Origin: Gemmata massiliana
Lineage (GTDB): Bacteria > Planctomycetota > Planctomycetia > Gemmatales > Gemmataceae
Reading direction: 5' to 3'
DNA length: 64,000 bases
Assembly (NCBI GenBank): GCA_000531095.1
Contig: HG799465.1
Span: 79,757 to 143,756 of the forward strand
Both the position numbers and the translations under genes were made by a program. Shown here in pieces: positions 21,877-52,116 of this stretch. Numbering within the stretch: position 1 is the stretch's first letter; the number at the start of each line of letters is the position of its first letter. The notes beneath the pieces are model-generated. The model had not been told where the DNA came from. It saw nothing but the letters and a program-made list of their open reading frames with translations, and did no database searches.

Positions 21877-22163
21877 CGCCGCGGATGAACGCAGAAAACG
21901 CAGAACAAGACAAAAAGCAGAGATCAGAAGACAGTACGTTTGTAGCCCCGTTAGGGGCGAAGGCGAGTAGCCAGGGGTGAAGCGCAGCGCAACCCCTGGC
22001 GGACCTCCGCAAACCCCGGTGTGAGGATTCCTGGCTGGCTCGGCAACCCGCCAGGGGTGAAGCTGCGCTTCACCCCTGGCTACCCGCCTTCGCCCCTAGC
22101 GGGGCTACAAACGCATCTGCCCTTTGCCTTGATCCGTGTTTTCTGTGTTCATCCGTGGCGCAT
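21877..22163. repeat. Nested long palindromic spacer
   Basis: Three complementary layers are visible. The outer GCGGATGAACGCAGAAAACG (about 21880) pairs with GTTTTCTGTGTTCATCCG (about 22137). The middle TTTGTAGCCCCGTTAGGGGC (21939) pairs with GCCCCTAGCGGGGCTACAAA (22093-22112). The inner units CCAGGGGTGAAGC...CCCCTGG occur twice, at about 21972-22000 and 22050-22080, each able to fold alone. It fills the spacer between two rightward genes and has no coding content. Confidence 0.8.
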
Positions 22164-44706: not shown

Positions 44707-44937
44707 GGGGCGCCTCCGGTCCGATGATGCCGATTGTGTGGGTAACTACGACTGCCGAATTTGAATCAATTGTGACGCTCTGGCGGATATCGACTTTTTG
44801 GGCGCACGGCTCCATGTAAATGACCGCAGATCGCGGTCCGGAACCGCGTGTGATTGTTCTCCCCGGGCCGAGCGGGACGTTCCCGCCAGCTCCGACGATC
44901 GGTTGGTTCCGCCCCCCTGGGAGAAGGAGAGTTCGTA

Positions 44938-46914
44938 ATGAGCTGGTTTCGTAATCTGAAAATGGCAGCGAAGCTGGGTATCAGCTTCGCCATCCTGGTT
45001 CTCCTGGTCGCGTGTACCGGGGGGCTCGGGTTGCAAGGGTTGGGACAAGTCAACGACCGCGCCGAAGACATCGCCAAGCACGCCGACGGCCTCAACCACG
45101 TTCAGGAAGCCAACGGGGAACTGCTCCGGATCTCGCGCGCCGTCCGGAACGCGATCCTGGACACCGACGCGGCCGGCGTCGATAAACGGGCGGCCGACAT
45201 CCGCCGGGCGGACCAGCGGTTCCGGACCGAGTTTGAAGAGTACCGGCGAACGATCGTCAAAAACGACACGAAAGTCAAAGCGGCCGAAGTCGAGCGGCAG
45301 TTCAACGAGCTGCGCCCGCTCCAGGACGAAATCGTGACCCTGGCACGGGCACAGAAAGACGAGGAGGCCAAGGCCCGGCTCCCGCGCATCCGGGCGATCG
45401 CCGATTCGATGGAAGAAAAGATCAATGCGCTGGTCGAGTCGAAGCAGGAACTCATCAAACAGGCCCAGACCGACGCGAGCGCGACCTACGCCCAACTCCG
45501 CGGGATCGTGACGACCGTTGTGATCGGGGCGTGCGCCCTGGCCGTAGCCCTCGGGGTCGGGCTGTCGCGGCTCACCGCCCGTCCGCTCCAGAAAACGATG
45601 CACGTCCTCGAAGCCGTGGCGAAGGGCGACCTCACGCACCGGGCCGAAGTCACGTCCGTGGACGAGATCGGGCAAATGTCCGCGGCGCTGAACGTCGCCA
45701 TTGGCGCGCTCGTGGCCGCCAAGGAAGCCGAGCGCGCCCAGGTCGAACGGGACCGCGAGCGCGCCGCGCGGGAAGCGGGCGAGGCGCGCGAGCGCACCGA
45801 GCGCGAGGCCGCGGCCACCCGCGCGCAAGCCGAACTGGAGCGGGCGCAAGCGGCCGAACTCAAGAGCCGGATCGACACGATCATTACGACGGTTAGCTCC
45901 CTGGCCGCAGGGGACTTCACGCAAGAGATCCCGGACCTGGGTACCGACTCGGTCGGGCAAATGGCGCACTCACTGAACAAGGCCGTCGTTTCGGTGCGAA
46001 CCGCTCTGGAAGGTGTGCGCGAGGTGTCCGAGCAACTCGCCGACGCCTCGGGCCAACTGTCCGCGGCCAGCGACGAGATCTCCACCGGCGCCCAGGAACA
46101 AGCGAGCAGCCTCGAAGAAACCGCCAGCACGCTCGAAGAGATCACCGCCACCGTGCGCCAGAACTCCGACAGCGCACAGCAGGCCCGGCAGTTGGCGAGC
46201 AACTCCAAGGAGATCGCGGAGCGCGGGGGCCAAGTCGTCGGCAACGCGGTTGACGCGATGAGCGAGATCAATCAGTCCTCGAAGAAGATTGCGGACATTA
46301 TTACGACCATCGACGAAATCGCGTTCCAAACCAACCTGCTCGCGCTCAACGCCGCCGTCGAAGCCGCACGAGCCGGCGAGCAGGGGCGCGGGTTCGCCGT
46401 CGTCGCATCCGAAGTCCGAAACCTCGCCCAGCGCTCCGCGACCGCAGCGAAGGAAATCAAGTCGCTGATTGAGGACTCGGTGAAGAAGGTCGACGCGGGC
46501 ACCGAACTCGTCAACCGCTCGGGCTCGACGCTCGGCGACATCGTGACGAGCGTGAAGCGCGTGACCGATCTCATCACCGAGATCGCGGCCGCGGGCAAGG
46601 AGCAGTCGGTGGGGATCGAACAGGTGAACAAGGCCGTGTCGCAGATGGACTCGGTCACCCAGCGCAACGCCTCGCAGACCGAAGAGATGTCGGCGACCGC
46701 CCAGACCCTCACCGATCAAGCCTCGCAGCTCCGAGACCTCGTCGCTCGGTTCAAACTCAGCGACGCGCGCCCCGTTCCGCGTTCCACGAGCAAGCCCGTT
46801 TGTGCGAAGGCCCCGGCCACCAAGCCCCGGCCCGCGGTCGCTCGGGCCATGAGCAAGACCCACGAACGTGAATCGTTCAGTGGTACTGGTAGTGACGAAT
46901 TTACCGAGTTCTAA
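44938..46914 (+). CDS. Methyl-accepting chemotaxis protein
   Basis: The 658-residue receptor has a membrane helix at about 11-32, a four-helix-bundle sensor to about 185, a second helix (about 186-206), a HAMP domain ([20 protein letters not shown]), a coiled stretch, and a second HAMP-like unit ([20 protein letters not shown]). The signalling domain has the hairpin tip [20 protein letters not shown] followed by [20 protein letters not shown]. The flexible C-terminus ends in DEFTEF. A GGAG site precedes the start. No che genes are nearby. A strong terminator follows. Confidence 0.95.
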
Positions 46915-46939
46915 CGCCCGCACCATCGTGTATCATGGT

Positions 46940-46996
46940 GAGCAGTCGGGGCTTCGGGAGGGAGCTGTTTCTTCACTCCCGAAGCCCCGATTGCTC
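46940..46996 (+). terminator. Terminator hairpin after the first chemoreceptor
   Basis: The 21-bp arms (46940-46960 and 46976-46996) match with one mismatch; the core is TCGGGGCTTCGGGAG. The stem is 26 bp past the stop codon. The remaining spacer to 47196 shows no gene and should hold the promoter of the next receptor. Confidence 0.75.
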
Positions 46997-47196
46997 GCGT
47001 CATTGAATCGCGGTTTCTTGCCTTAGCTGATTTCTCAGCCGTCTCATTAGCTCAACCGCCCATCAAGATAAAAGATTCGACCGCACGAGCGATTGCGAGC
47101 TAGAGATTAAGTGGATTCACCAAAGACAATATTTCGCCCCCGGCCGCAACGCGGATCGGGTTACGCGAGAACATATTTTTCGGGCGGGACCAAACC

Positions 47197-49437
47197 ATGA
47201 AAACGTTCAACAACCTGGGGGTCGGTACCCGTCTGATTGTGGGGTTCCTCCTACTCGCCGTGGCCAGCGCCGGTGTCGGCTACTTCGCTCTCACGTCCAT
47301 GAGCGACATGAACGCGGCGCTGGAGAACGCGAACGCGAACCTGATCCCCTCGATTAACGCGCTGAACGACATGCGCGGGAAGGGCGTCAACACGATCCAG
47401 CGCAACGAGCGCACCCTGATCCTGTCGGCCCGGAGCAAGAACGAAGAAGCGTACCGCGGCGCTGTAACCGGTCTGGAAAAGGCCTGGGTCAACATCCGGG
47501 ACGGGTACACGCGGTACGAATCGTATCCCATGATCGAGAGGGAAAAGCAGCTCTGGGGCGAGTTCCGCCCGCGCCTGGAGGAGTTCCGCCGGGACCACGA
47601 AGCGACGATGGCGGCCCTTAAATCCGGTGATCTCGATAAGGCCGAGAAGCTGTGCCTCGGATCGACCGCGAACGCGAACAAGATGGGCGACGCCTTGGAC
47701 GCCCTCATCGACCTCCAAAAAGAAGTTGGTGAGAAAGATGCGGGCGAAGCGCGCAAGGAGTACGCCGCGGCCCGGACGACGATGTTCGTGGTGATCGGGG
47801 GCGCGATGCTCGCGGCCCTGGGGTTGGGAATCTTCTTCCGGGGGTTGGTCGTGCGCCCGTTGGCCGCGACCGTACAGGTGCTCCGGGCCGTATCCACCGG
47901 CGACCTGACGCAGAAGGCCGTAGTAACCTCGACCGACGAGTTCGGGCAGATGGGCGCGGCCCTCAACGCCACGGTCCAGGGCATCCACATCGCGCTCCAA
48001 CAAGACAAGGTGAGCTGGGAAGCCGTCGGTAAGCAGCGCGAACAGAACGCGGACTTCGCGGCTCAAATTGTGGCTATTGGCAAGTCCCAGGCGGTAATCG
48101 AGTTCAAGCTCGATGGGACCATCGTGAGCGCCAACGAAAACTTCCTGCGCACGGTGGGGTACAGTCAGCCCGAGATCCAGGGGCGCCACCACAGCATGTT
48201 TGTACCCCCGGCCCTTGCCTCCGGTTCCGAGTACCGCGATTTCTGGAGCCGGCTCAACCGCGGGGAATCCGTCGCGGGCGAGTTCAAGCGCATCGGCAAG
48301 GGGGGCAAGGAGGTCTGGATTCAGGCCTCGTACAACCCGATCCCGGACCTCAACGGCAAGCCGTACAAGGTCGTCAAGTACGCCACCGACATCACCGCCG
48401 CCAAGAACATGGAGCACAAGGTCAAAGAGGACACGATCGAGCTGAAACAGAAGGTCGCGACCATCATGACCGCGGTCAACGCACTGGCCGCGGGGGACTT
48501 CACCCAAGAGGCCCCGGACCTGGGCACCGACGAAATCGGCCAAATGTCCGCCGCGCTCAACAAAGCCATGATCTCGGTGCGCGAAGCCCTGGAGGGCGTG
48601 CGCGAGGTGTCCGAGCAGCTCGCCGACGCCTCGGGTCAACTGTCCTCGGCCAGCGACGAGATTTCCACCGGCGCCCAGGAACAAGCGAGCAGCCTCGAAG
48701 AAACCGCCAGCACGCTCGAAGAAATCACCGCGACCGTGCGCCAGAACTCGGACAGCGCCCAACAAGCCCGCCAACTCGCCAGCAACTCCAAGGAAATCGC
48801 CGAGAAGGGAGGGCAGGTTGTGGGGCACGCGGTGGGCGCGATGAGCGAGATCAACGAGGCCTCGAAGAAGATCGCGGACATCATCACGACGATTGATGAG
48901 ATCGCGTTCCAGACCAACCTACTCGCGCTCAACGCCGCCGTCGAAGCCGCACGAGCCGGCGAGCAAGGGCGCGGGTTCGCCGTCGTCGCATCCGAAGTCC
49001 GCAACCTCGCTCAACGCTCCGCGACCGCGGCCAAGGAAATCAAGTCTTTGATCGAGGACTCGGTGAAGAAGGTCGATGCGGGTACGGAACTGGTGAACCA
49101 GTCCGGTTCCACACTCGGAGATATCGTAACGAGCGTGAAGCGCGTGACGGACATCATCACGGAGATCGCGGCGGCCAGCAAAGAACAGTCCACGGGCATC
49201 GACCAGGTCAACAAGGCCGTTTCGCAGATGGACTCCGTCACCCAGCGCAACGCCTCGCAGACCGAAGAAATGTCGGCCACGGCTCAAACGCTTACGGATC
49301 AGGCCGGACAACTTCGCGACCTCGTCGCCCGGTTCAAACTCGGGCACGACGAGCGCCCCGCCCCCAGGCCCACCCACAAGGCCCCCGGAGCAAGCCCTCG
49401 AACCCTAAGCCCCGGCCCGCGGTCGCCCGGGCCATGA
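47197..49437 (+). CDS. Methyl-accepting chemotaxis protein with PAS domain (C-terminal tail frameshifted)
   Basis: This is a 746-residue receptor with a membrane helix (about 10-31), a four-helix-bundle sensor ([20 protein letters not shown]), a second helix (about 189-208) and HAMP ([20 protein letters not shown]). A PAS domain (about 290-410) contains [20 protein letters not shown] and [21 protein letters not shown] second HAMP unit and the signalling domain ([20 protein letters not shown]) follow. The encoded end SPGPRSPGP is out of phase: in another frame from about 49385 to 49508 the DNA reads [15 protein letters not shown] and ends in DDGFTEF, like the other receptors. One base seems missing in a C run near 49345-49385. 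Confidence 0.93.
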
Positions 49438-49555
49438 GCAAGACCCACGAGCTCGACCGGCTCGGTGGCGGTGGCGGTGGTGGAGACGACGGCTTCACGG
49501 AGTTCTAAGGTCGTCCGCCCCGCATTGAGTTGTCCCCGAAGTTGAGGAACCCGTT

Positions 49556-50104
49556 GTGAAGTGTGGAGGGTGGATCGCGTTCGGATGCTGGTTAGCCGCA
49601 CTGGTGGGGGGCGTGGGCTTTTTATCGGCCCACCAGTTCACCCCGGGCCAGAGCGGACCGGCCCCGCGCCAGTTGAGTGAAGCGGAAACCGGTACGAAGC
49701 GGGCCGAGCGCCCGCGCGTGATGATGTTCGTCCACCCGCACTGTCCGTGCAGCCCGGTTTCCCTGCGCAACTTCGCGAAGGCGGTCGCGGGAACCGGGGC
49801 CGAGGCCGTGATTTACGTAACCGCAGAAGACCCGGCCGCGACCCCGAACGGCCGGGTCGCACGGGTTTGCGCGGCCGAGTTGCGCGCCGACCCGGACGGG
49901 GCGGTCGCCAAACAGTTCGGGGCCATGACGTCCGGCCACGTGCTCCTGTACGGCGCCGACGGGCGCCTGGTGTTCGAGGGCGGCATCACCGACGGGCGCG
50001 GGCACGAGGGGGACAACCCCGGCCTGCGTGCCGTCACCGCCCGATTGTCCGGAACCGAAAACGAACCGGTGTCGTTCCCCGTATTCGGCTGTCCCCTACA
50101 GTAA
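49556..50104 (+). CDS. RedB-type membrane-anchored thioredoxin-like protein
   Basis: The 182-residue protein has one N-terminal membrane helix (about 5-25) followed by a thioredoxin-like domain. The landmark [16 protein letters not shown] has the CxC pair, then [32 protein letters not shown] and the terminal VFGCPL. These match proteins annotated as RedB in planctomycetes and acidobacteria. It is 9 bp upstream of the third chemoreceptor gene, so co-expression is very likely. The function is unknown; a redox role is inferred from the cysteines. Confidence 0.82.
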
Positions 50105-50113
50105 ATTCCCGCC

Positions 50114-52116
50114 ATGAGTGCCGCACCGCTAAAGCCCGCCCCCACCGCCCACGCCGAAGAACTGTTCCGCACCGCGGTGGCCAGCAACCGCGCCCGCGCC
50201 GACCGGCTCTTCGCCGGCCTCATGGTGGCGCAGTGGGTGCTGGTGATCGTGCTGGCCGTGGTCGTCAGCCCGCGCGCCTGGGCCGGGGCCGAATCGGGAA
50301 CGCACCCCCACATATGGGTAGCGGTTCTGCTCGGCGCGGTGTGCGCGGCGGCGCCCGCGTACCTCGCGGTCAACAAGCCCGGGGACATGGCGAACGGGTT
50401 CGTGGTCGCCGTCTCCCAGATGGTCATGGGCATCCTGATTATGCACCTGACCGGCGGGCGCATCGAGTCGCACTTCCACGTGTTCGCGTCCATCGGGATG
50501 CTCGCCGTGTACCGCGACTGGCGCGTGCTCGTGCTGGCCGTGGGGGTCGCGGCGGTGGACCACATCGCCCGCGGGTTCCTCTGGTGGCAGTCGGCTTACG
50601 GGTCCAGCCCGTACAGCAACTGGCTGTGGCTGGAGCACGCGGCCTGGGCGCTGTTCTCGATGCCCGTTCTGGCCTGGATGTGCGTGCTCAGCACGGACGA
50701 AATGCGCACGCAGGCGACGCGCGAGGCCGCGCTCCCAACGCGGGTTCCCTGGCTCTTCAGCAAGCCCTCCAGGGCGCAGGCGCGCGCACTACGGTGTCAG
50801 GCCTGTGGAAGGTTCCGGTCGTGGAGACGCGGGCGCTGATGGCCGAGTTCTACAAGAACCTCTGGGCGCGCGAGGCCGCGCTCGCCGAAGCGGAACGCGC
50901 GTCGGGCGCCAATCTGCAAGCGATCGCCGCCCAAGCGCAGGAAATTCGCGAGCGCACGGAGCGCGAGACCGCCGAGCGGACCGCGCGCGAAGCCGAGGCC
51001 GAACGGGTCCGCCAAACCGAGCGCCAGCAGGCGGAAGACCTGCGGCGCAAGGCCGATATCATCCTGACCGGGATCACCGCCCTGGCCGCAGGGGACTTCA
51101 CGCACCAGACGCCCGAAATGGGCACCGACGTTATTGGTCAGATGGCCGCGGCACTGAGCAAGGCCGTCGTTTCCGTGCGCGAAGCCCTGGAGGGCGTGCG
51201 CGAGGTGTCCGAGCAACTCGCCGATGCCTCGAGCCAGCTCTCCTCGGCCAGTGAAGAGATCTCCACGGGCGCCCAGGAGCAGGCGTCGAGCCTCGAAGAA
51301 ACCGCCAGCACCCTCGAACAGATCACGGCCCGCGTGCGCCAGAACTCCGACAGCGCGCAACAGGCCCGGCAACTCGCCAACAACTCCAAGGAGATCGCCG
51401 AGCGCGGGGGCCAAGTCGTCGGCAGCGCGGTCACCGCTATGAATGCGATCAACCAGTCGTCGAAAAAGATCGCGGACATCATCACGACGATCGATGAGAT
51501 CGCGTTCCAGACCAACCTGCTCGCGCTCAACGCCGCCGTCGAAGCCGCGCGAGCCGGGGAGCAGGGCCGCGGGTTCGCCGTCGTCGCGTCCGAGGTCCGT
51601 AACCTCGCTCAGCGCTCCGCGACCGCGGCGAAAGAAATCAAAGACCTGATCGAGGACTCGGTCAAGAAGGTCGACGCGGGTACCGAACTCGTGAACCGGT
51701 CGGGTGCTACGCTCGGGGACATTGTGACTTCGGTCACGCGCGTGACGGACCTCGTCACGGAGATCGCCGCCGCGGGCAAGGAGCAGTCCACCGGTATCGA
51801 TCAGGTCAGCAAAGCCGTCTCGCAAATGGACGAAGTCACCCAGCGCAACGCGGCCCAAACCGAAGAAATGTCGGCCACGGCCCAAACGCTTACGGACCAG
51901 GCCGGCCAGCTCCGCGACCTCGTCACCCGGTTCAGGCTCAGCCACAACGAAAGTAGCGCCCCGGCCCGGCCCACACGAGGCACGCGCCCTAAAGCCAAAC
52001 CCAAAGCGCCGGTTCACAAGCCGCGCCCCGGCGCGAGCCGCCCGGTGAAGAGCAAACACACCCACGAACTCGACCGACTCGGTTCGGGCGGCGACGACGG
52101 CTTCACCGAGTTCTGA
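50114..52116 (+). pseudogene. Chemoreceptor with RedB-associated membrane sensor domain, interrupted by a 149-bp insertion
   Basis: The N-terminal part (50114-50734) encodes a five- to six-helix membrane domain ([40 protein letters not shown]). After TREAAL a 149-bp foreign stretch shifts the frame; the first frame stops at 50839. The second part from 50867 encodes [17 protein letters not shown], a coiled region, a HAMP unit ([20 protein letters not shown]) and a full signalling domain ([20 protein letters not shown]), ending GDDGFTEF at 52116. Deleting the insertion restores one frame of about 617 codons. As it stands, no membrane-linked receptor can be made. An ATG at 50839 might allow a soluble signalling fragment. 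Confidence 0.88.
50735..50883 (+). pseudogene. 149-bp fragment of a CHAT-domain gene, flanked by 17-bp direct repeats
   Basis: The segment reads [20 protein letters not shown], then [23 protein letters not shown], the conserved C-terminal block of CHAT (caspase-like) domains (SLALQ.AF..AGA..VV.SLWKV...T..LM..FY..LW). The sequence CGCGCGAGGCCGCGCTC occurs at 50718-50734 and again at 50867-50883, exactly 149 bp apart. It has no start, stop or element ends of its own. Confidence 0.85.

Follow-up and report, generated by a model that had tools for sequence, protein, structure and literature searches.

A CHAT-gene fragment between short direct repeats in a Gemmata massiliana chemoreceptor gene is very probably an artefact of assembly

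Double-strand breaks can be closed with templated sequence insertions that leave a target duplication; such insertions are known mainly from eukaryotes, and our search of the literature found no report of such an insertion in bacteria. In draft genomes, a known kind of scaffolding error leaves overlapping contig ends as direct repeats around a gap, which is then wrongly filled. Here we examine a chemoreceptor gene of the Gemmata massiliana assembly (G000) that holds a short piece of a CHAT-domain gene between two copies of a direct repeat. We consider it very probable that this insertion is an assembly artefact at a contig join, and unlikely that any real event in the cell stands behind it. 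The window, that is, the whole stretch of DNA analysed (64,000 bases), lies on contig C4 of this assembly, and the two relatives named below, G008 and G002, belong to the same genus.

Three chemoreceptor-type genes lie closely spaced and in the same direction at 44854-52116 of the window. The product of the interrupted gene is, in its C-terminal part, 79% and 75% identical to the other two receptors over 345 and 400 aligned positions, respectively. This gene (50114..52116, + strand) was recognized as encoding a chemoreceptor of the methyl-accepting type from the list of open reading frames, from orthologues in G008 and G002, and from an MCPsignal domain (PF00015, E 3.5e-56) that is found downstream of the insert. 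The insert cuts the frame: in the ORF listing, translation from the ATG at 50114 runs to a stop at 50839, and the resulting 241 amino acids match no Pfam family. The first-pass annotation had claimed that collapsing the two repeats rebuilds the receptor, and indeed, when 149 bp were omitted by script, a single frame stayed open from 50114 through to the gene's usual end (617 amino acids plus stop). Its claim of a perfect 17-bp direct repeat was likewise borne out, as exact copies of CGCGCGAGGCCGCGCTC stand at 50718..50734 and 50867..50883 on the + strand with a spacing of 149. The "149-bp scrap" that it described is a gene fragment, as it said, but a shorter one: the foreign part is 132 bp (50735..50866, + strand), the other 17 bp being the second copy of the repeat. 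We regard the left copy, which is single in two relatives, as genuine target sequence; the right copy most likely represents bases of overlapping contig ends that were counted twice, and the insert most likely the false filling of a gap.

All 132 bp of the insert are internal CHAT sequence and match G000:C5:835626-835759(-) at 100%. The identity with the donor spans 134 bp (window 50734-50867), 1 base being common at each end, which is no more than expected by chance. The donor, on contig C5, is an intact open reading frame of 451 amino acids that contains a complete CHAT domain (PF12770, E 8.4e-51); the earlier reading of the insert as CHAT sequence is thus correct, and the donor search that the first-pass annotation had suggested ends at an intact gene. 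Among 40 relatives, for each of which few candidates were scored, 5 gave matches to the donor gene, all of them short and weak. The insert carries no transposase, and not one pair of inverted repeats of at least 12 bp occurs in 50600-51000, in agreement with the earlier statement that both transposase and inverted ends are absent. A transposon or insertion sequence was rejected on account of the missing inverted ends and of the distribution of the insert sequence, which has two matches in the genome among the 40 of 104 first-look candidates that were scored, one of them inside the intact CHAT gene.

The insert runs in the sense direction of the receptor, which would suit a real retro-insertion, in which one of the strain's reverse transcriptases copied part of a CHAT mRNA into a nicked target and left a target-site duplication. 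So would the presence in G000 of six reverse-transcriptase genes above the family cut-off (L114-L119). By best PADLOC profile four of them are retron XIII-like and one is Drt9-like, and one is of group II intron type by its best NCBIfam profile, at a score below that profile's cut-off. To our knowledge, however, no retro-insertion activity of such kind has been described for these reverse transcriptases, the agreement in orientation is an even chance, and the fragment comes from inside the CHAT gene and, on inspection by eye, shows neither a tail nor an intron end nor retron sequence. We therefore regard retro-insertion as extremely improbable.

Besides G000, 40 relatives were searched, and both sides of the receptor matched at one place in two of them, each of which consists of one contig: G008, with 93% identity on the left side and 82% on the right, and G002, with 84% and 73%. 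In the remaining relatives the receptor matches were partial, weak or absent. In both G008 and G002 the match on the left runs 18 bp into the one on the right, which corresponds to one repeat copy without any insert, and the comparison with orthologues that had been proposed accordingly finds the gene uninterrupted. Because both relatives have a single copy at the orthologous place, the 17-bp repeat is not a chance resemblance within the gene, and its single-copy state in two genomes of one contig each argues for an assembly artefact in G000. A conserved in-frame insertion was rejected, since the insert is absent from both relatives. When 22 kb of collinear window sequence were compared with G008, the CHAT-fragment insertion was the sole insertion flagged by our rule; a second difference in the same comparison, of 185 versus 69 bases, falls outside the rule.

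The single-copy empty site in two relatives would also be expected of a real and recent templated insertion, in which end joining without Ku sealed a staggered break, its 17-nt overhangs being filled in, and captured the 132-bp CHAT fragment in doing so. The exact 17-bp target duplication, the 100% identical donor and the junctions that share just 1 bp speak for such an event as well. Against it, the Ku family (PF02735) has no match at E 0.001 in G000, a genome rated 96.5% complete, in a search whose Bacillus subtilis control was positive. Together with two further points given below, this leads us to judge a templated insertion very unlikely.

A different line of evidence comes from the assembly itself. 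A loxP-type sequence surfaced in the list of direct repeats, and we take it to be the circularization linker of 454 Titanium mate-pair libraries. Its 24-nt core has 40 exact copies in the whole of G000 (e.g., C5:600552 and C4:181065), whereas the core pattern read backwards, used as a control, has 0, and there are 0 copies in the single-contig relatives G008 and G002. That such linkers run through G000 and are absent from both relatives argues for the artefact. At 20 of 30 examined linker loci (of the 40 sites) there is no N within 100 bp, and some linkers adjoin N-runs. Linkers have thus been built into seemingly finished sequence, and the absence of N at the insertion site proves little. The window itself immediately follows a linker and an N-gap of 114 bases, and its opening 208 bp (1-208, C4:79757-79964) are a 97.6% copy of C4:79400-79605, which is likely a false duplication.

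Two observations on the linkers count against the artefact. First, the insertion site bears neither linker nor N: the window contains no N, the insert is free of linker, and on the examined part of C4 the nearest linker or N mark is about 50 kb from the site. Second, the majority of linker sites are without flanking repeats. At 26 of the 30 loci no repeat of at least 12 bp occurs on both sides within 300 bp, and the same is true at a threshold of at least 11 bp within 400 bp for 14 of the 17 linker sites in a sample of 1.663 Mb, which covers 18% of the genome, includes the window and leaves donors outside it invisible. For these 17 sites as many as 6 errors in 26 nt were allowed; 11 are exact, and the two weakest, with 5 and 6 errors, may be remnants or have arisen by chance. 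With the two weakest omitted, 15 sites were examined for genome scraps abutting the linker, with donors sought within the sample only and 6 of the 30 sides being too short, and scraps were found at four. Three are 100% copies: two, 123 and 35 bp long, come from 2.4 kb away and one of 35 bp from 4.0 kb away. The fourth (C5:89028-89205; 178 bp, 99.4%, donor 687 kb away) was set aside, because adjacent sequence pairs too and it may be a true paralogue. Three other linker sites have repeat copies on both sides of the linker, and the linker site at C5:853404 falls in a multi-copy region when compared with G008.

Repeats also mark the gaps of the assembly. Of the 39 N-gaps in the sample, 8 have the two copies of an exact direct repeat (20-121 bp) immediately at their edges, compared with 3 of 20,000 random placements in the control. 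These are probably overlapping contig ends that were scaffolded apart, and some could be true repeats. The closest counterpart to our locus lies at C5:701325 and 701414, where a 45-bp repeat encloses a 44-bp insert that is mostly linker and contains no N; in G008, the left and right parts of this site fall on one place, with 52 bp in common and no sequence between them. This site has the anatomy of the CHAT-fragment insertion, its filler being laboratory sequence. The recurrence of the repeat-plus-filler geometry here and at the 8 of 39 N-gaps argues for the artefact, and the same geometry with linker as filler weighs against a templated insertion. The biological capture that the first-pass annotation had inferred is therefore left unsupported, as the G000 assembly makes similar structures artificially.

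The history of the draft agrees with this reading. According to the paper on the G. massiliana draft, which names project PRJEB621, 454 Titanium reads at 22.4x, from a 3-kb paired-end library and from shotgun sequencing, were assembled by Newbler 2.8 with the overlap set to 40 bp, giving 417 contigs in 22 scaffolds (9,249,437 bp) (PMC4672568). The two variants mentioned there are cell-size variants and irrelevant here (PMC4672568). With 22 contigs, 9,269,192 bp and the linker in its sequence, G000 is probably the strain of the published draft. An overlap of 17 bp at the receptor would be below Newbler's 40-bp setting. However, five of the eight gap-touching repeats are at least 40 bp long, which the setting fails to explain, and it is hence not the whole story. 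The paper gives 17 PCR cycles for the paired-end library (PMC4672568), which would agree with template switching, in which a polymerase, in the cell or in library PCR, strayed from the receptor into the CHAT gene for 132 bp and resumed 17 bp upstream of its point of departure. Template switching yields the same sequence, but each junction shares just 1 bp, and in the cell it would be equally without parallels; we hold it to be highly improbable. Switching in the PCR would itself be a variant of the artefact.

The assembly artefact could have arisen as follows. We infer that two contigs were joined at the insertion site and that a chimeric read supplied the 132-bp filler. Two contig ends within the chemoreceptor gene would truly overlap by 17 bp; if they were scaffolded apart, the 17 bp would be kept twice, and the false space between them might then have been filled by 132 bp from a chimeric read with a piece of the CHAT gene. 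The location of the donor on another contig counts against this, since the CHAT piece is then not the simple mate of the receptor.

To what extent comparable scraps recur was surveyed in two ways. For the 1.663-Mb sample, we looked for direct repeats of at least 9 bp flanking 452 of 989 self-matches (non-tandem, 40-4000 bp), a pair counting from either side, and two passed: the CHAT-fragment insertion and an intergenic dispersed repeat (C4:604659 and 604744; 30-bp repeat, 55-bp spacer). The latter is ambiguous and was left out of the count; in G008 both of its flanks match at one place, and the repeat stretch does not. Over about 232 kb aligned to G008, five insertions of at least 25 bp were picked out by the rule, among which the CHAT-fragment insertion has the longest overlap, 18 bp, and the second-longest, 12 bp, is in an intergenic repeat. 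We note a 131-bp insertion relative to G008 at C4:265541-265671 (G000), which has a 12-bp overlap and contains a CCCCTTCCCTAAGAAGGAAGGGG-type repeat, and one of 60 bp with a 4-bp overlap at 22008-22067 of the window (C4:101764-101823). A perfect 157-bp pair adjoining an N-gap (C4:445908-446064) is a multi-copy element and was rejected as a parallel.

Neither the sample nor the roughly 232 kb aligned to G008 holds a clear second scrap that is free of linker and N and has both an abutting repeat and a donor. This weighs against a templated insertion and, as regards the sample, against retro-insertion. It also means that, for the assembly artefact, the particular sub-type at the receptor is deduced from its linker-bearing and N-bearing cousins. 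A broader biological proposal is that a planctomycete without Ku closes staggered breaks with short copies of its own genes, via reverse transcriptase or alternative end joining, with target duplication and without the marks of mobile elements. We consider this distinctly unlikely; if real, the locus would be a rare case of a bacterium making a templated insertion without Ku.

The G000 draft may serve as a warning that linkers and gap-touching repeats can be mistaken for target-site duplications, disrupted genes or gene capture, and scans for insertions with duplication should be screened first for linkers and gap-abutting repeats. Set beside known systems, the locus resembles insertion sequences and miniature transposons in having a target-site duplication of plausible length, but it has no inverted ends and no transposase, and its donor is an ordinary internal piece of a gene. 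With templated insertions at double-strand breaks it shares a short donor copy, a small target duplication and the lack of mobile-element ends; it differs from them in that it occurs in a draft assembly, with no Ku match and no clear second case. As with untrimmed 454 mate-pair (loxP) linkers that carry mate scraps, pieces of the genome are spliced in elsewhere, although the site here is without a linker and the donor is on another contig instead of 2-4 kb away. From scaffolding artefacts it departs in that the filler is genomic and free of linker and N, whereas it agrees with them in its perfect short direct repeat, single in the relatives, and in a filler that is unrelated to the gene.
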